From: Phycisphaerales bacterium
GTDB lineage: Bacteria > Planctomycetota > Phycisphaerae > Sedimentisphaerales > Anaerobacaceae
DNA: 64,000 nucleotides
Reading direction: 5' to 3'
Assembly (NCBI GenBank): GCA_030602885.1
Contig: JAUVYV010000020.1
Location: 1 to 64,000, forward strand
The notes beneath the pieces are model-generated. The model was not told the origin of the DNA. It saw only the letters and a program-made list of their open reading frames with translations, and ran no database searches. How positions within the stretch are numbered: position 1 is the stretch's first letter; each line of letters starts with the position of its first letter. A program made the translations under genes and the position numbers. Below are positions 64-48,537 of the stretch, piece after piece.

Positions 64-1298
64 TTCTTTTTGGGGTTACGGATTTTGGGCTGTTGGGAGC
101 GGTAAAAGACTATGAGATATGGTGAAGGGAGAATTATGTAATGCGAATGGGGGCCTGATGCGGAAGGGTGAGGTCAGAAGTGATCCTCTGTAGCGGGGCA
201 GCCGTGCACCAGACGGTGCTACGGCCAAGTTAGCAATCCCTTCCTCTGTAGCCATGACAAGATAGGGCCGCTCGAGGACAAGCGAGGGTAAACTCCGGCC
301 ACGAAGATTACAGCGGGCAGATTGGCTTTGTGTTCTCGGCATGTACTGCCTGCGTCCACTGAATCGCTACGCGCTTCTCTTTGGGAGCCAATCTTTTGAA
401 TCACCGGCTGAACCAAGTCTGGACGGAGGATTACACGGGGGTCCCGTCGGCCCGCCAGAGAGGGTGGCGGGTGGACGTCAGTAGGTGGCAATGAGACCTA
501 GCGCCAGGAGGAGGGATAGAGTGTCAGTGCCCGCCAGCCCGCCAGTGGCGGGTAAGGTGGATATTTGTTGACGGGGGTGGTGAATGGAGACAGGCGTTCT
601 TCTCAAAGCGAGCTTTTTCAGAACGCTCCGCCTTCGATCACGGAAGCGTGCGCTTCCATTTTTGACCGGCTGAACGAAGTCTGGGGCAGGCACGAAGTAA
701 CAAAAAAAGGTTCAAACCACGGATGGACACGGATACCCCCCCTTGGGGACAAGCTTCGGTAGGCACAAGTTTGCACGGATTTTTTACCGCCGAGGACGCC
801 CTCTGTTGAAAAAACAAGGTAGCAGGCACTCGAGGGTAAACTTCGAGCGCAGAGGGATTCAGTCAGCAGGTGTACTCAGCGCGGGCCTTGCTCCAAACGA
901 GGTTTGTCCGCAGACCCTTTGCCTTCGTCCACATGAGCTACGCTCATAATATGAGCTGACTGAATAATTATTGATTGGCTTTGTGTTCTCGGGATGCACT
1001 GCTTGCCAAGCAAGCTTGTCCGCAGTGCCTTGCCTCGTCCACTGAAACGCTTTGCGTTTCTCCTTTGGAGCCAATCTGTCCTATGGGTGGGTGAATGGAG
1101 ACAGGTGGCAATATCGCTGGAAACAAAGGCCTCATTAAAGAGGCAGCCGTGAGGTGTGCAATTAGAATACAGGGTAAAGGCCATTAATAAGGCGGGCCAA
1201 AGCGAACCCAGTAATACAATATCGCTCGTCTTATGATTACTGGTAAAGTTGGTCGGATATCTTGCCGATTATAGTATTGGAAATTTGGGCATTACTGA

Positions 1299-1328
1299 AA
1301 GGCGCTATATTAAACGGTAGCGCCTTTT
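1299..1328. terminator. Rho-independent terminator-like hairpin AAGGCGCTA-N10-TAGCGCCTTTT
   Basis: 9-bp perfect stem followed by T-run; no convincing ORF immediately upstream. Confidence 0.55.
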
Positions 1329-1499
1329 GGTGTTTTATGGCTTGATGAAGACAACACGAAAAGAATTAGCCACAGAGCACATCGAGGGTCACAGAGATGC
1401 CATTACGAACGAAACGCGGCGAGAACAAGTTTACACTGATTAACACCGATTTTTTAGACACGGACTAACACCACTGATTTTAAAAATGTACCGTTACGC

Positions 1500-2780
1500 C
1501 TATTCTATATGTTTGTACAACGTTTGAATTAATTCGTCTTCTCCCATTATTCTTCTATGATATGCCCCAGATAGCTTGGTTTTTTCTCGACTAATAAAAT
1601 CTTTTTCAATATTCGTTAGTTTTCGATCTTTCGTATTTCTTAAGAATATATCAATAAAAGTCTTTCTTGCTTCATCGAAAATCGACAGAGGGTACATTTC
1701 AAGGAAAGACTCCTTTGATTGCAAGATATCTGCTAACAATATCTCTTTTCTATCATCAGGCAAAGTGTGCCATTTGCTTGGTCGTATGAACCAATGGTCA
1801 CTGCCAAAGATCATAAAGCTTTCAACCATATTTAGAATAGACAGATGGTGTTGGTAATGAAATTTTATGTATTCATCGAATATTTTTTTATTCTTTTTGT
1901 TAGTTGCACATACAATGTAGGTTTCTTTGTTAGTAGGAACAATATTCATAATTAGTAGAAATTCAGTATGAGAACCATTAATTTGTAACTCTGAATTTGC
2001 AAAGCCACACAAAGCTATCGGCAGAATATAATCTATAGTAAGTGCAGAAAAAATTATATCGCTTGATTTGGTATCATTTGTTATTTCGCTAATTATTGTA
2101 TCAGAATATTCTTCTAAGAGGACAAGAGATTTGTTTATATACTTAATCATCTTCTCAAAACTTAGCAATAATTTGTCTCCGCCATTAATTTTTATTCCCT
2201 TGATTTTATCGAGTTCTATATGATTTTTTAATAAACCACTTACATACTTTAAACTTTCTCTTTCAACGACCTTTTCATACTCTCTATATTGTTGATTTAG
2301 AACAAAACTCTCATTTTTCCTAACAACTATTTCACGACAGATTGCTCGATACGATTGCAGCAAAACTTTTTTGTAAGTATCAATTTTTGCATCATTTTCG
2401 TATATCGAAAAAAGCTTTTCATGTTCCTCACAAAATCCCGGAAATACAGAGGCATTATTTATACCGACACTGTTTATCTTTACTTTCAGTTCTTTGCCAT
2501 ATTCATCAACATCTGGTTTTAACACATGTCCATTTTCAGATATTATATTTAATGAAGCGCTCTTGGGAATGGAATGTGACTTTTTTATAGTTCTCTTTGT
2601 GCATGTTGGGTATATACATTGCCTTGACTGTCTGTGGATCTTATTGCTTTTATAAGATATAAATTTGAGAAAGGGGGAATAATATCCGAATTTCTGACAG
2701 TCGAACATATTCTCAGAAATGTTATCTAGTAATGAGTCCAACGCCTTTTCTATTTTTATTTTATTTTCTTCTTTCATCAC
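1500..2780 (-). CDS. Uncharacterised protein with HNH/treble-clef-like Zn motif (CxxxxC...SHSIPK...GFCxxH)
   Basis: 426-aa ORF, AT-rich; motif C-IYPT-C, SHSIPKSASLNIISENGHV, FPGFCEEH. Confidence 0.75.
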   Translation of the reverse strand: MMKEENKIKIEKALDSLLDNISENMFDCQKFGYYSPFLKFISYKSNKIHRQSRQCIYPTCTKRTIKKSHSIPKSASLNIISENGHVLKPDVDEYGKELKVKINSVGINNASVFPGFCEEHEKLFSIYENDAKIDTYKKVLLQSYRAICREIVVRKNESFVLNQQYREYEKVVERESLKYVSGLLKNHIELDKIKGIKINGGDKLLLSFEKMIKYINKSLVLLEEYSDTIISEITNDTKSSDIIFSALTIDYILPIALCGFANSELQINGSHTEFLLIMNIVPTNKETYIVCATNKKNKKIFDEYIKFHYQHHLSILNMVESFMIFGSDHWFIRPSKWHTLPDDRKEILLADILQSKESFLEMYPLSIFDEARKTFIDIFLRNTKDRKLTNIEKDFISREKTKLSGAYHRRIMGEDELIQTLYKHIE

Positions 2781-2922
2781 GTGCAGCTGGTAAAGTAAAG
2801 TTCAACCGAATTGTTGGCTGTTTATTTAAATTTCTACACTCTTTGTGCCCTCGGTAGCTAAACAAACGATTCCGTTTTTTCTTTGCAGATTCTTTCTATT
2901 ATACACAATCATGTGTGCTTCT

Positions 2923-3426
2923 TTATTTTTTTTCGGTGTTATTTGTGCCTTCCGATAGTTTGGCTAAATATGCTTTCAAGTCATCACCCTGAAGTTTTAA
3001 AACTTCTTTCCTCTCTGACGTTACTGATACCCGTACTTTATCTTTAGGCTGGTTACTGGCCTTGGATAGCATTTGAGGAAAAATAGATGGTAGAACATAT
3101 TTTGTACCTTCACCTGGTTGTAGTGGGGACCTCTTGGGCGGATACTCTTTGAAATTCAATGCAAATGTAGTATTTCCAAGTTCTGGCCCTTCATCACCCC
3201 AAGTAAGAGCAACAGATTTTATATAGACGGGGACCTGACCATCATTGTATATTTCGAGTTGGAGAGCTGTCACGTTCTCGCGGGGTTCTATTTGTACAAC
3301 TGTAATTGAAAGGCTCCCTTTTACTCGTTCCTCGTGCTTTTTGCAATAAGTCCATATTTGCCATAAGAGGGATATACCGGCAATTATAAGACCGGTAACC
3401 GCTATTATTGTTGTTATTATTATCAA
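2923..3426 (-). CDS. Membrane-anchored hypothetical protein (single N-terminal TM helix)
   Basis: 167-aa ORF with hydrophobic N-terminus IIITTIIAVTGLIIAGISLLWQIW. Confidence 0.65.
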   Translation of the reverse strand: MIIITTIIAVTGLIIAGISLLWQIWTYCKKHEERVKGSLSITVVQIEPRENVTALQLEIYNDGQVPVYIKSVALTWGDEGPELGNTTFALNFKEYPPKRSPLQPGEGTKYVLPSIFPQMLSKASNQPKDKVRVSVTSERKEVLKLQGDDLKAYLAKLSEGTNNTEKK

Positions 3427-3538
3427 AGCACTATCTACGCAACGATGATCTGTGGTTAAACAAAACTATTGATTTTTGCTACGCAACTGGTTTGTAATTA
3501 TATCTATTGCCGCAAAAACTGCAAGATTTACTTTTTGC

Positions 3539-26938: not shown

Positions 26939-27071
26939 TAATTTCAAATCAGCTAACAACGAGGGCTTGAAACTGGGCGGACAGTTAATTGATTATTTAC
27001 GATTTACTATTGATTATTGGTATTTTGCCGAAAGCGCTGGCAGTGATGAAAATTCGAAAGGAGATTGTGTC

Positions 27072-27374
27072 GTGGCAAAGGAAAAACAAGAGATAATTGA
27101 CGAGATCACAACTCATATACAAAAATGTGGCGGAAACTACAGTACTTGGTATGTGGGTATTAGTAAAGATGCAAAAGATAGACTGTTCAATGAACATGAT
27201 ATCAGAGAAAAGAAAGATGCATGGATTTTTAGGACAGCTGGCTCATCTCGAGTTGCTAGAGACATTGAAGAATATTTTGTAAATACACTAGGCACAGATG
27301 GCGGTACAGGTGGTGGAGATAATACTACAGATATGGTTTATGCTTATAAGAAGGCTGCACATACCAATCCTTAG
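27072..27374 (+). CDS. Small GIY-YIG-like hypothetical protein
   Basis: GTG start; STWYVGISKDAKDRLFNEH ... ARDIEEYFVNTLGTDGGTGGGDNTTDMVYAYK. Confidence 0.6.
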   Translation: MAKEKQEIIDEITTHIQKCGGNYSTWYVGISKDAKDRLFNEHDIREKKDAWIFRTAGSSRVARDIEEYFVNTLGTDGGTGGGDNTTDMVYAYKKAAHTNP

Positions 27375-27424
27375 CAGATTTAATCTGGAGTGGTTATGCT
27401 CTATAAAAAACCGTTAATAGTAAT

Positions 27425-28882
27425 ATGGAAACAAATTTATTAAAACATATCCCTAATTTCTCTTCAACTAGCTTTTGGATTAGCCCAAAAGGTGCTATAG
27501 GGGCATTGGTAATTGGTGTTACAGTTGCTGGGGGCCTCATTACACTAGGTTGCATACCATCAGTACCTTTATGGAATATAATTACGATTATCAGCCTTAT
27601 AAGTCTTTCTGTTCTAACATGGCTACTTATAACACAAATCTATCTTCGGACTGGAAAAGGGACCAAAATCGGTCTTGCTTATGATGGCTTTTCTATTGAA
27701 CGTAAGGATTGGAACCGAACCCGTGATACATTACGTGATTTGTTTAACAATGGAAAAATTGGAAATCAAGTGTGTCTTCGGTTTGTTCCCGTCAGAACAA
27801 CAAAGATAGATCAATGTGCCAAGAATTACATGAAACGCTACGGTTTAACGATTCTCGTGGGCATACAGGAATCACCTCAAATAAATAAAAAGAATCCTAA
27901 ACATGACCAGCATCCTTTTTTCCCTGAGATTTGTGTTAGACTTACAAAGAAGGTAGAAAAACAATTTGTTGAAACTAACTTAAAACATACCATTCAAATC
28001 ATTATGCAACGCACGAAAACGATCAAAACTCTTTCCAATGTTGTAGAAGCTCGTGCACATAATCTACATGATATGATGCTCCTTTTGATAGCAGCATTAT
28101 GTTATCGTGAGGGAAAATATGAGGATTGTGCCGCAATTTCGCGATATCTCGAACAATCACTTTCTTTAATAATGAGGCCGGATCAGGAACCTCGAAACCG
28201 AATAAGATTATTGGCTATGGAAAGCTACTTGCGACCAGCAGAGGTTCCTATTCTCAATCTCCCACCATATGATAAACTTATGGAGATACGTAATTTTGCA
28301 GAAACCGCCTTAGATTATTTTCAAGATTCATATCTTGTCCCTCTTAGTTTGGCCAGAATCCGATTTTTAACGGGTGATACTGATGGAGCCATTGAACTAA
28401 CAGATCAGTACAAGGCTAAAATTGAGAAACTTCAGAATGCTGGGCGAGAGATTACCGATAGAGCTTTGGTGGTTTGTTTCCTTAATTCAGGCTTTCTTGA
28501 GTTTATCCAGGGTCATTGGGTAAATGCTTACAATGACTATTGTGACATGTTAGCCGTTGATGAGTATCGCAATGAAAATTGGGAAGGAATTATCGAATTT
28601 ATTGACTATGTTGAAACATTGGATCGCTATGAAGGTATCTGCTATCTTCAAACACTTTATAGATTAATTGCAGACCAATCTGTCCCAGCTGAACTTCGGG
28701 CAGCGGCGCAAAATTGGGTTAATCAAGACGATTCACGCGAGGAACTCAGGACTTTAATATCACACAATTATCCTTCATTAGCTAAAAAATCTGAAGAGAG
28801 AGTCGGAACACGCGAACAACAGAGAAAAACGAAACAAAGAAGCAAACGAAAAAACAAGGGGCGAAAGAAGAAGAGAAGATAG
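27425..28882 (+). CDS. Two-TM membrane protein with TPR-like cytosolic domain and highly basic C-terminal tail
   Basis: Two N-terminal TM segments; helical repeats; tail REQQRKTKQRSKRKNKGRKKKRR. Confidence 0.65.
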   Translation: METNLLKHIPNFSSTSFWISPKGAIGALVIGVTVAGGLITLGCIPSVPLWNIITIISLISLSVLTWLLITQIYLRTGKGTKIGLAYDGFSIERKDWNRTRDTLRDLFNNGKIGNQVCLRFVPVRTTKIDQCAKNYMKRYGLTILVGIQESPQINKKNPKHDQHPFFPEICVRLTKKVEKQFVETNLKHTIQIIMQRTKTIKTLSNVVEARAHNLHDMMLLLIAALCYREGKYEDCAAISRYLEQSLSLIMRPDQEPRNRIRLLAMESYLRPAEVPILNLPPYDKLMEIRNFAETALDYFQDSYLVPLSLARIRFLTGDTDGAIELTDQYKAKIEKLQNAGREITDRALVVCFLNSGFLEFIQGHWVNAYNDYCDMLAVDEYRNENWEGIIEFIDYVETLDRYEGICYLQTLYRLIADQSVPAELRAAAQNWVNQDDSREELRTLISHNYPSLAKKSEERVGTREQQRKTKQRSKRKNKGRKKKRR

Positions 28883-29453
28883 AACCCGTCAGCGATGGCT
28901 CTTTGGGCATATTTCCTGCTTTTTTCCCCTCAAAATCAGTTGACATTGTGGCAACTCTCTCGCCCTAAGTTTCTTCTGAGAATTCAGGCCAAAGCGGGCT
29001 GGCGAGGCACGCCCACGAGACGCCAAATTCAAGCCACGAACGACGAATTGCCCCCTATTTCTTTTTCAGGCCCAGGTCGTGGGCCTTTCGGTGGGTGGCG
29101 GACAAGGAAGTGAGAAGTGATCCTCTGTAGCGGGCCAAGTGAGCAGCACTATAGGACAAGGAAGTGAGAAGTAAGGAGGGCGGGCAAGGTGGATATTTGT
29201 TGACGGGCGGGAAGTTTTTGGGTAGTATTATACTCTTCCTTCTAATAGTGATGCCGTTTTCATTATAGCCCAATACGATGCAGCTATGAAACAATACAGG
29301 GATAAACATTATGGCTATGATGATATGGAAGAAGAAGATCGGTGGTTTACAAGTAACTGATCAACACAAGGGTAATTAAAGATGTTCGGCCATATTCGTT
29401 TTTCGTGGACAGGTTAAGAAATACAAGTCATTTTCAAGCAAGGAGAAACAGCT

Positions 29454-29561
29454 ATGGGTGATAAGGGGAAAAAAGATAAAGGCAAAAGAGAAAAGCAGAA
29501 AAAGGCCCAGTTTACTCCAAAGGAAAAACGAAGATTAAAAAAAGAAAACAAGAATAAATAA
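29454..29561 (+). CDS. 35-aa Lys-rich microprotein MGDKGKKDKGKREKQKKAQFTPKEKRRLKKENKNK
   Basis: ATG preceded by AAGGAG SD; too short for the ORF track. Confidence 0.6.
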   Translation: MGDKGKKDKGKREKQKKAQFTPKEKRRLKKENKNK

Positions 29562-41104: not shown

Positions 41105-41581
41105 TTGCGTTATGTGAAGGGCCTGGGCGTGGATGTAAGAACGAAGGCGCGTGAGCTGTCGATGCAGGCGTTGTTTCAGCTTGATGTTCAGGGGTCCGGG
41201 TTGATGGCGCAAATCGAGGATTTTTTTATTGAGAGCGAGGACAATGATTTTGTTCGGCGTCTCGCGGCGGAGTGGACGAAAGGGACGTGGGAAAACCTTT
41301 CTGCGTGCGACGGGCTGATAGAGGGTTCGGTGATAAAATGGAAGATGTCACGTCTTTCGCTCGTTGATAAGAGTATTTTGCGATTAGCGGTTTACCAGTT
41401 GAAGTTTTGTTCCGATATTCCGCCTAAGGTTGTGATAAACGAGGCGATTGAGCTTGCAAAGAAGTTCGGCGCTGACAAGTCGTCTGCGTTTGTGAACGGT
41501 GTGCTGGATGCGGTGTTGAAAAACATTGTGTCGCAGAGGCAGGGCAGGTCGGCAGGAGAGGGCGGTACGAGCCAGGGATGA
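41105..41581 (+). CDS. nusB: Transcription antitermination factor NusB
   Basis: RTKARELSMQALFQLDVQG ... RLSLVDKSILRLAVYQL...PPKVVINEAIELAKKFGADKSSAFVNGVLDAV. Confidence 0.9.
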   Translation: MRYVKGLGVDVRTKARELSMQALFQLDVQGSGLMAQIEDFFIESEDNDFVRRLAAEWTKGTWENLSACDGLIEGSVIKWKMSRLSLVDKSILRLAVYQLKFCSDIPPKVVINEAIELAKKFGADKSSAFVNGVLDAVLKNIVSQRQGRSAGEGGTSQG

Positions 41582-42513
41582 GGAAAATCGCGGTATTAAA
41601 CCAGAAGGGGGGAGTGGGCAAGACCACAACGGTGGTCAATATTGCGGCGGCCCTTGCAAATATGGGCCAGCGGGTCTTGGTTATCGACCTCGACCCGCAG
41701 GGACATCTGACGACCCATTTCGGGGTCGATCCCGAAACGATAGAGGCGGGGGCCTACAAGGTCCTCATGCAGTCGGCCAATATCGAACAGGAGATGCTGC
41801 TTGTTCGGGCGAATCTCTGGCTGCTGCCTGCCAATATAGATTTGGTCGGGGCGGAGAGCGAACTGGTGAGCGTTGTAGGCAGGGAGACGATTCTACGCGA
41901 GGCACTTGCAGGTCTGGAAGATAAGCTTGATTACCTTTTAGTGGATTGTGCGCCGTCACTTGGACTGCTGACGCTAAACTCGCTTGCGGCCGCCGAAGAG
42001 GTGCTGATACCGCTTCAGCCGCACTTCCTGGCGTTACAGGGATTAGGTAAACTGCTGCAGACGGTCGAGCTTGTCAACAAGCGGATTAACCCGAAGCTAC
42101 GGGTCAAGGGGGTTTTGCTTTGCATGTTCGACAGCAGGGCGTCACTGCCGAAGGAGGTCAAGGCCGACATCGAGCAATTTCTCGATAATGCCCGCGGCAC
42201 CGACAGCGCGTGGTCGCAGGCGCAGATTATGCCCGTCTATGTTCGCAGGAACATCAAATTGGCCGAGGCGCCGAGCTACGGCCAGACGATTTTCGAGTAC
42301 GAACCGAACTGCCACGGCGCGGAGGATTACAGGAAAGTCGCTGAATTCATCCACAACCCGATTGCATTTTCGGTCGAGCCGTTTGAGGTTGCAGGCAATG
42401 AGCCACCGCCTGTAGAGATAAAGGAAGTGCCCCTGTCCAATTCGCAAGAGCCGGTATCCGAATTTACGCCGGCGGCAGACGATACGCCGCTCGAATCCGA
42501 ACAGCAGGTATAG
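41578..42513 (+). CDS. parA: ParA/Soj-family ATPase
   Basis: MRKIAVLNQKGGVGKTTTVVNIAAAL; VIDLDPQGHLT; LLVDCAPSLGLLTLN. Confidence 0.9.
   Translation: MRKIAVLNQKGGVGKTTTVVNIAAALANMGQRVLVIDLDPQGHLTTHFGVDPETIEAGAYKVLMQSANIEQEMLLVRANLWLLPANIDLVGAESELVSVVGRETILREALAGLEDKLDYLLVDCAPSLGLLTLNSLAAAEEVLIPLQPHFLALQGLGKLLQTVELVNKRINPKLRVKGVLLCMFDSRASLPKEVKADIEQFLDNARGTDSAWSQAQIMPVYVRRNIKLAEAPSYGQTIFEYEPNCHGAEDYRKVAEFIHNPIAFSVEPFEVAGNEPPPVEIKEVPLSNSQEPVSEFTPAADDTPLESEQQV
42477..42502 (+). repeat. 26-bp direct repeat, copy 1 (inside 3' end of parA): agacgatacgccgctcgaatccgaac
   Basis: Identical to 45539-45564. Confidence 0.95.
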
Positions 42514-42638: not shown

Positions 42639-43223
42639 ATGATGATACTCACGGGGAAAAAATTTATATTATTGCTTTTATACACGCCGACTAGTGATGA
42701 TAAAGTTAATATTCCGATTTCCGGAAGAACAAGGTTAATGAAAATGGGCTTCCTATTTAAGGAAGAACTCAAAAGCGATTTCGAGAAAGACAAAACTTTT
42801 GAAGAGTTAGCATTGCCGGAATACTTTGCATGGAAATATGGTCCTTTTTCGGGCGAACTGCTAAATGACCTTGAGTTTCTGGTAAATCAAAGCTACATTA
42901 AATCCACAAGCGGAGGCATGCCCATAGATGCTACGATAGCTGAAGCCGAATTCGGTGAATATGATTATTGGGTAGAGGACATAGATGAATTTCGCTCCAG
43001 AGAATATGAGGAAGAGTCTTTCGAGCTTACTGAAGAAAAAGGTGTTCCAGAAGCACAAAAAATTTGGAAAATCCTTTCTGAGAACCAGAAAAAAATAATA
43101 AGCGAATTCAAAAAGGTATTAAATCAGGCATCCTTAAATCGGATACTGGAATATGTTTACAAGAAATACCGGAAAGATGGTTATATTGACAGGTCGTTAA
43201 TCAGAGAAAGGTATCTAGCATGA
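42639..43223 (+). CDS. YwgA/Panacea-like domain protein
   Basis: SGRTRLMKMGFLFKEEL ... FAWKYGPFSGELLNDLEFLVN resembles the GRTRLQK..FLLE/..YGPFS.EL pattern. Confidence 0.55.
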   Translation: MMILTGKKFILLLLYTPTSDDKVNIPISGRTRLMKMGFLFKEELKSDFEKDKTFEELALPEYFAWKYGPFSGELLNDLEFLVNQSYIKSTSGGMPIDATIAEAEFGEYDYWVEDIDEFRSREYEEESFELTEEKGVPEAQKIWKILSENQKKIISEFKKVLNQASLNRILEYVYKKYRKDGYIDRSLIRERYLA

Positions 43224-43723
43224 TAGAATCTCTGCTTGGTTATATAATCGGAGGCTTCAGCTTGCTTGCAGGTTTATCTGTCATGCTTATTCGCAATGTT
43301 GATAGCGAATTGTTGGATAGTAGGCGAACTATAAAAGACCAATTTATTGCTGCCTATAAGGAATTTGCTGAAAACACAATTGGAGAAGCAATTGACACAG
43401 ACAAATTGAATATGTCCATAAGGCGCTTAAAAGATTTGCATTGCGCAAGCCATTGGGATTTGATAAAACTTAGAATAATTGAGTGGTTGATAAGCAAGTC
43501 ATTTTTATTGATGATACTGGTGTGGGGCTTTGTGGCAACCTTTTTGTTTATTGGACATTTAGGTTTTGACGAGAATCGTACTGTCTGTAGAGTTATTTTT
43601 CTTAATGTCTTTCCCTTCTTATTACTTGTGATTCAAATTCTCTATGTCGCTTGGATGGTAAATAGAGAGCAATATCTTAAAAGGATTAAAGAGGCATACA
43701 AGAATTTAGAGTATCCGTCATGA
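43220..43723 (+). CDS. Hypothetical membrane protein (three predicted TMs)
   Basis: 4-bp overlap with neighbours on both sides; hydrophobic segments. Confidence 0.65.
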   Translation: MIESLLGYIIGGFSLLAGLSVMLIRNVDSELLDSRRTIKDQFIAAYKEFAENTIGEAIDTDKLNMSIRRLKDLHCASHWDLIKLRIIEWLISKSFLLMILVWGFVATFLFIGHLGFDENRTVCRVIFLNVFPFLLLVIQILYVAWMVNREQYLKRIKEAYKNLEYPS

Positions 43724-44127
43724 CCGAACAGGCAATTGTAAATGCAGTCGTTGAAACACTCATGGTAGATGGATTTACCGTCGCAACTGAGGTTGCAAAC
43801 TTTTATCGCAGTGCTGATATTGGAGCCCTATCCAGAAATGGTGATGTGTGGGTAGTCGAATGTAAGGTCTCGAATATTGGTCAGGCGATAAAACAGGCAA
43901 AGACACATAAATTGTCTGCGGATAAGGTTTTTATTGCGACGTTCTATAAAAAGACACGAGAAATAACTCTTAGAAGGATTAGGGAGGCAGGTTTGGGATT
44001 GTTTTATGTTATGCCGGATGGTTCTGTAAGCAAACCGGTTGAGCGGCCTAAGCGAAATAGGCCATGGGGATTGGCAAGGAAGAAGCTTTCAAAAAGAATA
44101 CTTGAGTTGAGGGAGATTTATGGCTAA
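43720..44127 (+). CDS. Small PD-(D/E)XK nuclease-like protein
   Basis: SADIGALSRNGDVWVVECKVSNIGQAIKQA (D...ECK). Confidence 0.6.
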   Translation: MTEQAIVNAVVETLMVDGFTVATEVANFYRSADIGALSRNGDVWVVECKVSNIGQAIKQAKTHKLSADKVFIATFYKKTREITLRRIREAGLGLFYVMPDGSVSKPVERPKRNRPWGLARKKLSKRILELREIYG

Positions 44128-45481
44128 ACATATATATCATTACAACACTCATGCGGAAAAAAGATATTTTCTGGGGCCGGAGCATCACGATTTGTATGAC
44201 ATTATTGCTCTAAATGGAAACATTGTATCCCATACGCCACCAGCGATAGCAGCTTTTCTTGCTACTGCTGCGAAAGATTTTTATATTGATCCGCAGACTC
44301 ATGCCTTTCAACATGCAACTATTCATCTCAAAAGGGATGTCAGTGACAAGAAAAAGAAAGAAAAGCCACTATATAAATTTAAGCCATCAATCAAAAAATT
44401 GGCAAAGGAACGATTAGGAACGCCTTTTTCTGATGTAATTACAAAAGATAGACCAATAAATCCGACGCTTTTTTTAGATAATGGTAAAATTAAGAATGAT
44501 GTCATAGATATTGTATGCCAAAGTGTTAAGAGGTTTCAACTGGATATGATTGAAAGCGAACTGGATGATGAGGCCAAAGAGCTAATGGGAGAGCCTTCCA
44601 CCTTCCTACCCAAGTTTGTAATTGCACCATATTTTTATCTGTCAAAACACCATTGGAAAGAATGGCTTAAGATTAATATATCCTGTTACCAAAGAATGAA
44701 AGCACTTGTCAAAGAAGTGCCGACGTATTTAAGTCTGGTTGTTTCAAAAGAGGCCTTGGATAACGATGGTGCTATTGTTAGTGCATTATCGACTGTGAAA
44801 CCTGATGGATTGCTATTGTGGATTGACAGCCATGTTGAAGAAGAATTAAGAAAGTCTGAGGTGGAAAGATATATCCATTTTCTCCAGGGGCTCAAGGGCA
44901 CTACCGAGACTTTATATAACTCCCATGGTGGGTATTTGTCTATTTTGTTATGCCATTCTGAAAAAGGATGTTTAGACGGTGTAGCACATTCGGTAAATTA
45001 TGGCGAACATCGAAATGTTATTCCAATAGGCGGTGGGTTGCCAATGGCACGCTTTTATTTGCACTCGCTACACTCACGATTAAGATGGGGTGATGTGGTA
45101 GAAATAGTTCAACATAGGGGCTGGCTTGATTCTGTTGGTAGTTATAGGGAGAAAATCTGTAAGTGCCATCAATGTCAGGAGTTGTTTGAAGAAAAAGGTT
45201 CAGCAGAGAAAGCCTTTGATTTATATGGAAAGAGTAACCCTGTTACTATTACCCGGCGCAATGGGACAATAGTTAGATTGGAATATCCAACAAAAGAAGC
45301 TAAGCAGGCAGCAACTCGCCATTATCTTTATAATAAAGCAAAAGAATTTGATGATATTCGAGAAAAGACTTTTAGCGAACTTTTGCAAGAACTAAATTCA
45401 ACATACAACGAAATTTCTGTGGATTCTGGAGAAGATGCTGTAGCACATTTGCTAACGTGGCATAAGGTTCTTGAAACCTGA
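44120..45481 (+). CDS. Putative tRNA-guanine transglycosylase (TGT/DpdA)-like protein
   Basis: FYIDPQTHAF; DGLLLWID; HGGYLSILL; C-terminal CxCxxC (CKCHQC) and TRHYLYNKAKEFDDIRE resembling the TGT Zn site and C-terminal helix. Confidence 0.45.
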   Translation: MAKHIYHYNTHAEKRYFLGPEHHDLYDIIALNGNIVSHTPPAIAAFLATAAKDFYIDPQTHAFQHATIHLKRDVSDKKKKEKPLYKFKPSIKKLAKERLGTPFSDVITKDRPINPTLFLDNGKIKNDVIDIVCQSVKRFQLDMIESELDDEAKELMGEPSTFLPKFVIAPYFYLSKHHWKEWLKINISCYQRMKALVKEVPTYLSLVVSKEALDNDGAIVSALSTVKPDGLLLWIDSHVEEELRKSEVERYIHFLQGLKGTTETLYNSHGGYLSILLCHSEKGCLDGVAHSVNYGEHRNVIPIGGGLPMARFYLHSLHSRLRWGDVVEIVQHRGWLDSVGSYREKICKCHQCQELFEEKGSAEKAFDLYGKSNPVTITRRNGTIVRLEYPTKEAKQAATRHYLYNKAKEFDDIREKTFSELLQELNSTYNEISVDSGEDAVAHLLTWHKVLET

Positions 45482-45538
45482 TATAAGTAATCATCGCAAA
45501 ATTATTGGCTCAAATTCAGTTGAATTTGCGACGTTGGT

Positions 45539-45564
45539 AGACGATACGCCGCTCGAATCCGAAC
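45539..45564 (+). repeat. 26-bp direct repeat, copy 2
   Basis: Identical to 42477-42502; also in a frame reading VDDTPLESEPQL*. Confidence 0.95.
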
Positions 45565-45712
45565 CACAGCTATAACCAAATCATACGGTCTGCAAACCGA
45601 ATTCGCGTGCTGCTAATATGTGATTTTGACGGTGAGTATCGAGTCGGTTTCCGGAAGAATAGGTCGGTCGCAAGCCGATTCTTCGGCTAATATGTCGGAC
45701 TATGTAGGGACA

Positions 45713-45856
45713 ATGAATAGGCCGGAATCGGCGGAACTCAGAGCGGCTAAGGTTCTTGCGGAAGGATATCGGCTGGATTATAATCACCATCGGCCGCACA
45801 GCTCGCCGGACTATATGACGCCGGCGGCATTTGCGGCGAGATATATTCGGTACAGT
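45713..45856 (+). pseudogene. IS3-family transposase C-terminal remnant
   Basis: NRPESAELRAAKVLAEGYRLDYNHHRPHSSPDYMTPAAFAARY. Confidence 0.75.
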
Positions 45857-45873
45857 TGCAGAAAGGACTTGTT

Positions 45874-48537
45874 ATGCCGCCCGCAAGATTCAGTGTAGTT
45901 CTCCTTTTGGTTTTGCTTGCCGCCTCTATTGGACAAGGCAGGGTCTTGTTCGTTTCGGACAGCGGCAGGGACGATAATCCGGGGACACATTTCTATCCGT
46001 ATGCAACCTTGCAGAAGGCGGCCGACGCTGCAGAACCGGGCGATTCGGTTTATGTACTGGCCGGTTATTATAAGGAGAAGGTTCTTATACGGAATATCAA
46101 AGGCAGCAAGGATAAGCCCGTTGTCTTCAAGGCGCTTGGCGAGGTCGTGCTCGAAGGGCCCGATGATATCTCGCTTAAAGGATATGATTTGAAAATCGGC
46201 GATTACGATATGCCGCTTTCGTCACAGGAGCATCCTTATTATCCGTATTATCCTGGCGCGGTGGTGCGGATAGAGAATTGCAGCAACGTGAGATTCGACA
46301 ATTTTATTGTGCGCGATTCGAAGTGGCTCGGGATCGCGGCGTATAATTGCGAGGGGCTGACAATCTTCGGGTGTACGGTGACGGACACTATGGCGTCGGG
46401 TATCTATGTGCTGGATTCGAAAAAGGTGCTTGTCGCTCACAACGAGGTGATGCGCGCTTGCGGATATCTGCATCGCCAGAGGGTGCACGGGTCGCAGGAG
46501 TTCGTCTCGATGGTGAACTGTGTTGATTTTGAGGTTGCGTATAACCGGGTGCACGAGAGCGGGACATGGGAGCGCGTCGAAGGCAAGCACAGCGGCGTGG
46601 GGGGCGAGGGTATCGATGCGAAGGAGCACTCACAGAACGGCAAGATTCATCACAACTATGTCTATAACCTCAGCCGATTGGGTATCTATATTGACGCATG
46701 GGATGCGCAGGATTTGAGGAACGTCGAGGTATATAACAACGTAGTTCACGATTGTCTCAACGGCATAGCTATCGGAGCGGAGCAAGGGGGGACGGTTGCG
46801 GGACTGAAGATTTACAATAATGTCCTGTACCGCAATCGTGGTGCGGCGCTGGAGCTGTTTTCGTGGGGCAAGAACGGCAGAAAGAGGGACATCAAGATTT
46901 ATAACAACACGATTTGCAACAATCAGGGGACAGGTATCACCCTGGGGACAGAGTTGAGTGAGAATATTGAGGTCTTCAACAATATAGCTGTCAAGAACGG
47001 CAAGAGGGACTTCAGTGCGGGTACGGCCGTGAACGTCACCGAGGGCGGGAACATCTTCGGCAGGAATCCCAGGTTTGTGGATATGGACAGGGGGGACTTT
47101 CGGCTTACGGCTGAGAGTCCGGCAATTGATACCGGCGAGGGCCAAGCTTTAGGTGACAGGGACATGGGTGACGGGCCTCGCGTGGTGGGTGAGAAGGTTG
47201 ATGCGGGGGCGTATGAGCTCGGGAGCAAGCCGGAAAGCCCGCGGGCGATATTTGTATCGAAGAAGGGTAGCGACGACAACACGGGAACAATATTCAGTCC
47301 GGTCGCGACGCTGCAGAAGGCGGCGGACACGGCCGGAGCCGGGGACAGCGTTTATGTCATGCCCGGCTATTACGAACAGAAAGCCGTCTTAAAGAACAAG
47401 GCGACAAAGGAAAAGCCGATTCTTTACAAGGCCGTTGGCCGGGTAATTATAGATGGGCCAGGTGATATTATGCTCACCGGGTCTTTGCCAGAGATACGCG
47501 ATGCGAATGTGTCTATCTCTTCGCCGAAGCATCTTTACTATCCTTATTACCGTGGTGCTGTCATAAGAGTTGAGGATTCGAGCCATGTCACTATAGACGG
47601 CTTTGATATCCGCGACTCCGAGTGGTTCGGGATCTCGGGGCTTTACAGCAATAACATATCGGTGCTGCACTGCAATATTCAGGATACGATGTCTTCGGGC
47701 ATTTACATTCTTGAGTCCAAGAACATTACGGTTGGCTATAACGAGGTGATGCGTGCGTGCGGGTTCAACAGGCGGATTGAGAGCCACGGCTCGCAGGAGT
47801 GCATTTCAATCGTCAACTGCGACGGCTTCGAGGTGATGTACAACAGAGTTCACGAGCCGGCGATTTACAGTTGGACCGAGGGCGGGGGCACGGGTGTGGG
47901 CGGCGAGGGCATCGATGCGAAAGAACATTCCAAGAACGGAAGTATTCATCACAACTACGTCTATAACCTCGAACGTGGTGCGATTTACTGCGATGCCTGG
48001 AATTCGCACGACTTCGGCAATATCGATGTCTATAACAACGTGGTCCACAACTGTACGGGCGGTATGGGTGTCGGCGCAGAGGACGGCGGAACGGCAAGCA
48101 ACATACGGTTTTACAACAATGTGATATACAACATCAAATGGGGAGGTTTCGGGATTGCATCGTGGGGGCCGAACGGGGACAAAAAGGAGGTCAAGGTTTA
48201 TAACAATATCATTTACAACTGCGGTCTCGGCGGGATAAGTCTCGGCGACGAGCGAAACAGCGGTATCGAGGTGTTCAACAACATATCGTTCAAGAACGGC
48301 CCGAAAGGAGAAGACAACTATGATCCGGGTACGGCCACGAATGTAAAAGCGGGCGGCAATCTGTTCGGGATTGACCCCAGGTTTGTGAATATAAGTTTTA
48401 ACAACTTCAGGTTGTCGGCAGGCAGTGCCGCGATTGATTCCGCTGTTGAGTACACCGTGCCGCCTCTTGATATGGACGACCGGCCGAGGACCACAGGTGC
48501 GGCGATGGATGTCGGGCCCTTTGAGTATCAAAAATAA
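45874..48537 (+). CDS. Secreted right-handed beta-helix (polysaccharide lyase/Pel-like) protein, internally duplicated
   Basis: Signal peptide; two ~440-aa halves each starting [VI]LF/IFVS..G.DDN.GT...P.ATLQKAAD. Confidence 0.85.
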   Translation: MPPARFSVVLLLVLLAASIGQGRVLFVSDSGRDDNPGTHFYPYATLQKAADAAEPGDSVYVLAGYYKEKVLIRNIKGSKDKPVVFKALGEVVLEGPDDISLKGYDLKIGDYDMPLSSQEHPYYPYYPGAVVRIENCSNVRFDNFIVRDSKWLGIAAYNCEGLTIFGCTVTDTMASGIYVLDSKKVLVAHNEVMRACGYLHRQRVHGSQEFVSMVNCVDFEVAYNRVHESGTWERVEGKHSGVGGEGIDAKEHSQNGKIHHNYVYNLSRLGIYIDAWDAQDLRNVEVYNNVVHDCLNGIAIGAEQGGTVAGLKIYNNVLYRNRGAALELFSWGKNGRKRDIKIYNNTICNNQGTGITLGTELSENIEVFNNIAVKNGKRDFSAGTAVNVTEGGNIFGRNPRFVDMDRGDFRLTAESPAIDTGEGQALGDRDMGDGPRVVGEKVDAGAYELGSKPESPRAIFVSKKGSDDNTGTIFSPVATLQKAADTAGAGDSVYVMPGYYEQKAVLKNKATKEKPILYKAVGRVIIDGPGDIMLTGSLPEIRDANVSISSPKHLYYPYYRGAVIRVEDSSHVTIDGFDIRDSEWFGISGLYSNNISVLHCNIQDTMSSGIYILESKNITVGYNEVMRACGFNRRIESHGSQECISIVNCDGFEVMYNRVHEPAIYSWTEGGGTGVGGEGIDAKEHSKNGSIHHNYVYNLERGAIYCDAWNSHDFGNIDVYNNVVHNCTGGMGVGAEDGGTASNIRFYNNVIYNIKWGGFGIASWGPNGDKKEVKVYNNIIYNCGLGGISLGDERNSGIEVFNNISFKNGPKGEDNYDPGTATNVKAGGNLFGIDPRFVNISFNNFRLSAGSAAIDSAVEYTVPPLDMDDRPRTTGAAMDVGPFEYQK

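Follow-up and report, generated by a model that had tools for sequence, protein, structure and literature searches.

Immune systems such as CBASS, Thoeris and the short Argonautes combine a constant core with an effector that is swapped. Among known anti-phage effectors are the SIR2 NADases, for instance that of DSR2 (PMC10973363). Panacea proteins neutralise many toxins and are tied to phage defence (PMC8832971, PMC10440598), and the published PanA antitoxins neutralise toxins that depolarise membranes (PMC8832971). Proteins of the TGT family have likewise entered immune operons: Cap10 of type IV CBASS is a TGT-family protein that has been remodelled to bind a deazaguanine-linked partner and does not exchange tRNA bases (PMC11996544), and TGT homologues have recently been proposed to belong to a defence operon in the BRC systems with GNAT/TGT modules (PMC12839542). 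Here we describe an operon in which a fixed core, consisting of a Panacea/SocA-like protein (PAN), a PD-(D/E)XK nuclease-fold protein (NUC) and a TGT-like protein (TGTL), is coupled to one exchangeable effector with either three transmembrane segments (TM), a SIR2-like domain or a PIN domain. We consider it probable that this is an undescribed, horizontally spread defence operon of the abortive type.

The operon is present in the window, the whole 64,000-nt stretch of DNA from a Phycisphaerales bacterium that was analysed (contig JAUVYV010000020.1). The ORF listing of the window contains four ORFs of 194, 167, 135 and 453 aa on the same strand at 42639-45481 (+) (Table 1), just as an earlier sequence-only reading of this DNA had claimed, and the tight coupling that it described is borne out by their overlaps: 4 nt (ATGA) where the first gene meets the second at 43220, another 4 nt at 43720, and 8 nt between the third and fourth genes (44120-44127). 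The four-gene block has a G+C content of 37-38%, compared with about 53% in the surrounding region, and a repeat search of the window revealed that it is flanked by a 53-nt direct repeat whose copies are 85% identical and share a perfect core. The peptide encoded in the downstream copy resembles the C-terminus of the parA product, EFTPAADDTPLESEQQV followed by the stop codon, and this copy is probably an integration scar. Low G+C content and the flanking repeat are together consistent with a horizontally acquired cassette that was inserted at the end of a gene; no clean empty insertion site was present in the parA loci of relatives, where the parA tails diverge. The 92-aa ORF beyond the repeat resembles the typical C-terminus of an IS transposase and is probably a transposase remnant. 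Other known defence genes were not identified beside the cassette within the window. Two further stretches of low G+C content are found at positions 1000-3500 (32-38%) and 27000-29500 (37-44%) of the window; within the first of these lie genes for a 426-aa protein that has a CIYPTCTKRTIKKSHSIPKS motif and for a small protein with one transmembrane segment, possibly another acquired defence-like gene pair.

Table 1. Features of the four-gene cassette and its flanks in the window.
Feature	Position	Strand	Description	Basis
PAN	42639..43223	+	194-aa Panacea/SocA-like protein of antitoxin type; first gene; core	Pfam and PADLOC matches
TM	43220..43723	+	167-aa proposed toxic membrane effector	Three hydrophobic segments (hydropathy scan)
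NUC	43720..44127	+	135-aa PD-(D/E)XK nuclease-fold protein; core	AF2, Foldseek, conserved residues
TGTL	44120..45481	+	453-aa TIM barrel with C-terminal zinc site; core	AF2, match to 1iq8, zinc ligands
Upstream repeat copy	42460..42512	+	3' end of the parA-like gene 41578-42513	
Downstream repeat copy	45522..45574	+	Duplicated parA 3' end; encodes EFATLVDDTPLESEPQL and a stop codon	
92-aa ORF	45620..45898	+	Directly follows the cassette and its repeat	Ends in YNHHRPHSSPDYMTPAAFAARY motif

When 99 related genomes were searched with TGTL, five relatives of 22-29% identity were recovered, each of them at its own genomic place. In four of the five, TGTL is preceded by genes for a Panacea-like protein, a membrane protein and the nuclease, and in the fifth (L007) a transposase is found where the upstream part would be. 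A single scan of the GTDB species genomes gave 37 loci, distributed over Planctomycetota, Bacillota, Bacteroidota, Acidobacteriota, Chloroflexota, Patescibacteria-type lineages, Thermoplasmatota, Heimdall- and Thorarchaeota and others; viral contigs added four more. The spread is patchy, as ten of 392 genomes across the phylum, the window's own included, contained a match, and no close relative was found in the phage and plasmid collections searched. The loci were collected with TGTL as the query, and the neighbouring genes were not queried. The recurrence of the gene order in about 45 other loci goes far beyond chance. The core genes PAN, NUC and TGTL keep the same order in about 45 independent loci, which come from archaea, viral contigs and many bacterial phyla, and this order holds in nearly every locus whose contig is long enough. 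The gene set is conserved across other genomes and horizontally spread; a lack of conserved co-occurrence, which the sequence-only reading had named as a refutation, was not what these searches returned.

The exceptions to this order are an IS-interrupted copy (L007/L031), two loci at contig edges (L018, L035), L073 and L048. At L007 (5888-7234), PAN and the greater part of the TM gene have given way to the transposase, but NUC and TGTL are intact. The Spiroplasma locus L048 (5300-7314) has an intact PAN, but its remnants of TGTL and SIR2 are broken even when read with code 4 (TGA = Trp). L073 (2051-3496 and 1399-2061, minus strand) holds a divergent NUC-TGTL pair without PAN, in which NUC has an insertion; the pair lies near a type III restriction-like helicase (identified by eye) and may represent a second, more distant system built on the same two proteins. 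Some relatives come from isolates, among them Moorella mulderi DSM 14980, which has the SIR2 form, Merdimonas faecis BR31 and Caproicibacter fermentans EA1. Their neighbours include genes for type I restriction-modification systems or subunits (L017, L076), an MmeI-like type IIG enzyme together with a C5 methyltransferase (L015), and also resolvases, integrases and MobA; this tally of defence and mobile genes is no more than supportive of a defence function.

The product of the first gene had been labelled YwgA-like; it is better named Panacea/SocA-like. The window protein alone matches the Pfam SocA_Panacea model below the cut-off (E 0.0059), but 18 of its 36 homologues match this model (PF13274; best value 8e-8), which places the family among the Panacea/SocA-domain proteins. 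The window protein also matches PADLOC PDC-M19A (1.9e-6), which has just the Panacea region in common with our gene set. PAN is encoded upstream of NUC in nearly all complete loci.

The gene between PAN and NUC is the variable element. In 25 loci, the window included, this slot encodes a protein with two to four hydrophobic segments; the three segments of the window protein fit the putative membrane effector of the sequence-only reading. Another 18 loci, of which two are truncated by contig ends, have no gene in this slot; here PAN directly adjoins or overlaps NUC, and a gene for a SIR2-like protein is found 3' of TGTL. The identity of the latter was established at L023 (Pfam SIR2_2, 5.6e-9; PADLOC SIR2, 3e-14), and most members have a GAGFS-type motif. 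In two archaeal loci, a PIN-domain protein (8e-13 and 1.7e-12) fills the middle slot. The three types exclude each other: no locus carries two of them together, and one (L080) shows none. On the TGTL tree, the effector state switches at least five times; the TM form of the window clusters with copies from Electryoneota, Bacteroidota and viral contigs (support 100), and this cluster sits within a larger group that otherwise mostly has SIR2. One would expect a constant core with interchangeable effectors in an immune system and not in a metabolic operon. An in-frame TGTL-SIR2 fusion at L034 (4067-5908) was rejected as a functional fusion as it has neither the zinc domain nor the GAGFS motif of SIR2, and it is probably a decayed internal deletion; it does illustrate how close the TGTL and SIR2 genes lie.

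A Panacea gene that neighbours a toxin-like gene of the TM or PIN type, in a mobile-element context, is also what one would see in a toxin-antitoxin addiction module of the PanAT type that maintains mobile elements, confers no immunity and has picked up two accessory genes. We regard this explanation as unlikely. NUC and TGTL are conserved to the same degree as PAN and fall outside any known toxin-antitoxin pair, and in the SIR2 form the effector gene comes last in the operon, away from PAN. A plain PanAT module leaves the two additional invariant genes unexplained.

The D...ECK motif noticed earlier in the third gene corresponds to D33...E47-C-K49 of NUC, and these three positions are, along with E3 and Q59, invariant in 38 sequences. 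The AF2 model (pLDDT 94.8) displays the alpha-beta-beta-beta-alpha-beta core of the PD-(D/E)XK fold with its D..ExK signature. Foldseek placed PDB entry 3dnx first (E 1.6e-8; TMq 0.75), followed by a Pyrococcus repair endonuclease, EndoMS, Card1 and Can2, so that the assignment as a PD-(D/E)XK nuclease is upheld; the protein matches the Pfam MmcB-like model at 0.0075.

The 453-aa TGTL protein is predicted by AF2 (pLDDT 93.6, pTM 0.92) to form a TIM barrel. Its strand order agrees with that of an eight-stranded barrel, which is followed by a C-terminal subdomain with C347, C349 and C352 of the CKCHQC motif and by H401, which lies within TRHYLYNKAKEF on the last long helix; this barrel-Cys3-His order is that of TGT. 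Across 36 homologues, conservation of the Cys columns amounts to 94-97%, and H401 does not vary. The residues and the spacing of 48 residues between C352 and H401 are as the sequence-only reading had described them, and the structure prediction that it called for returned the TGT-like barrel with a Cys3-His zinc subdomain. Among the PDB matches listed, the archaeosine TGT 1iq8 gave the highest query TM score (0.45, over the full length), compared with about 0.2-0.35 for other TIM barrels. In a Foldseek comparison with viral models nothing was significant, the highest query TM score (0.36) being that of a phage TGT.

Sequence profiles gave a fainter signal. None of six TGTL members matched Pfam TGT (PF01702) at E 0.1, the window protein matched no TGT, DpdA or CBASS-TGT model of Pfam, PADLOC or NCBIfam, a PDB sequence search with it yielded nothing useful, and the PADLOC TGT model PDLC00913 had no match in 199 genomes of the phylum. 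In hhalign comparisons with canonical and archaeal TGTs, the zinc motif alone was aligned (probability 3-7%), with a score of 30 against 17 in the reversed control. Because the profiles align at the zinc motif only, homology between TGTL and TGT is probable but not proven; as a description of the predicted fold, the term TGT-like is supported. A Heimdallarchaeota genome encodes a separate 374-aa TGT-like protein (L087, 1450-2571) with a weak match to the PADLOC TGT models.

In TGTs, one catalytic Asp resides in the DSGGFQ motif after strand 3 and the nucleophile in MFDC after strand 8; the DpdA counterpart of the latter is FDS. D57 of TGTL, at the end of strand 3 and thus in the place of the DSGGFQ Asp, is invariant. 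The nucleophile position (289), mapped by strand order and not by superposition, is mostly occupied by A/S/C and followed by H/Q/N. By this mapping, the nucleophilic Asp seems to have been lost, and TGTL would then, if the mapping holds, not be a classical transglycosylase.

These findings bear on the proposal that the operon is a minimal Dpd-like modification-restriction system, in which TGTL would put 7-deazaguanine into host DNA and NUC would cut DNA that lacks the mark. A TGT-like fold does adjoin a PD-(D/E)XK nuclease, and the host encodes QueC as well as a canonical TGT of its own, so that deazaguanines, including preQ0, should be available. We nevertheless hold this to be very improbable. 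TGTL has no DpdA match in PADLOC, and the DpdA model found none in the window's own genome either; the conserved cassette consists of PAN, the effector, NUC and TGTL only, without DpdB, DpdC or Que partners, and the nucleophile position is taken by A/S/C as mapped. Nor would such a system give a role to the Panacea protein and to toxins that are exchanged for SIR2 or PIN proteins. Of the earlier TGT/DpdA-like label, the TIM barrel with its zinc site thus stands, while the kinship to DpdA and the writing of 7-deazaguanine into DNA are not supported; the earlier remark that the module is unlike a complete Dpd cluster holds.

The fold of TGTL also invites a reading in terms of RNA, since the TGT fold recognises tRNA anticodon loops. 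TGTL would then bind tRNA or another guanine-containing RNA which NUC would cleave, or the two would sense phage damage to host tRNA, with the TM, SIR2 or PIN protein as the final effector. The conservation of the zinc site and the presence of D57 where TGT has the DSGGFQ Asp are in keeping with this. However, PD-(D/E)XK proteins act mostly on DNA, and the set of TGT catalytic residues is incomplete in TGTL; taken with its damage-sensing variant, we rate this explanation as quite unlikely.

The missing DpdA match and Dpd/Que partners, the apparent loss of the nucleophile and the swapping of effectors favour abortive-type immunity over modification and restriction. We infer from the gene set a function in defence, and the following roles and complexes are proposals in that sense. 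TGTL may be a reader of bases or nucleic acids and not a classical base-exchange enzyme, with guanine, 7-deazaguanine or a tRNA-like hairpin as possible ligands, and it could act jointly with NUC as a sensor or processor of infection. In the resting cell, PAN would keep the effector silent, much as PanA does with membrane toxins. Infection would perturb the TGTL/NUC complex or provide its ligand, and the effector would be freed: TM would depolarise the membrane, SIR2 would deplete NAD+ and PIN would cut RNA, so that the infected cell stops. We tentatively suggest, as a possibility that falls somewhat short of even chances, that bacteria and archaea possess a categorically new immune system, in which a TGT-fold zinc protein with remodelled catalysis and a PD-(D/E)XK nuclease would jointly read a nucleobase or nucleic-acid sign of infection and license one of several interchangeable, Panacea-held killers (membrane protein, SIR2 NADase or PIN RNase).

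Neither Pfam, PADLOC (2023) and NCBIfam nor the open-access literature that we searched contained a system of this composition, although a description that we have not seen is possible; a search of that literature for defence systems combining TGT with either Panacea or SIR2 likewise yielded none that had been described. With its order kept in some 45 loci, the cassette thus answers to the conserved, undescribed and probably defensive module that the sequence-only reading had envisaged. If this is true, a widespread and undocumented family is added to the known defence systems, a second case after Cap10 emerges in which queuosine/TGT machinery has been turned into an immune component, and Panacea antitoxins become linked to a larger system of several genes that includes SIR2 effectors.

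Each of the described systems shares a part of this design. PanA-PanT also pairs a Panacea/SocA-like protein with interchangeable toxins, membrane and nuclease toxins included (PMC8832971, PMC10440598), but our set has NUC and TGTL as an extra invariant core and a SIR2 effector after TGTL. Thoeris, DSR2 and the SIR2-APAZ short Argonautes place an exchangeable SIR2-like effector on a sensing module, yet the proposed PAN-NUC-TGTL sensing module is found in none of them. The BRC systems, too, are proposed to include TGT homologues, but they are built on HerA/FtsK, PglZ, BrxC-like ATPase and STAND proteins (PMC12839542), none of which is present in the cassette. Dpd systems resemble it in combining a TGT-like protein with nuclease genes in a putative defence cluster; in contrast, DpdA retains the FDS Asp after strand 8, which seems to be missing from TGTL, and the cassette has no DpdA sequence match, DpdB, DpdC or Que genes. 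Type IV CBASS has likewise recruited a TGT-family protein to an immune operon, whereas the present cassette lacks a CD-NTase, a QueC-like protein (Cap9) and other CBASS genes, and a PADLOC search with the four window proteins gave no match to the CBASS TGT models (PDLC00912/913) or to other CBASS models. Judged by analogy, Cap10 is the nearest working precedent for TGTL.
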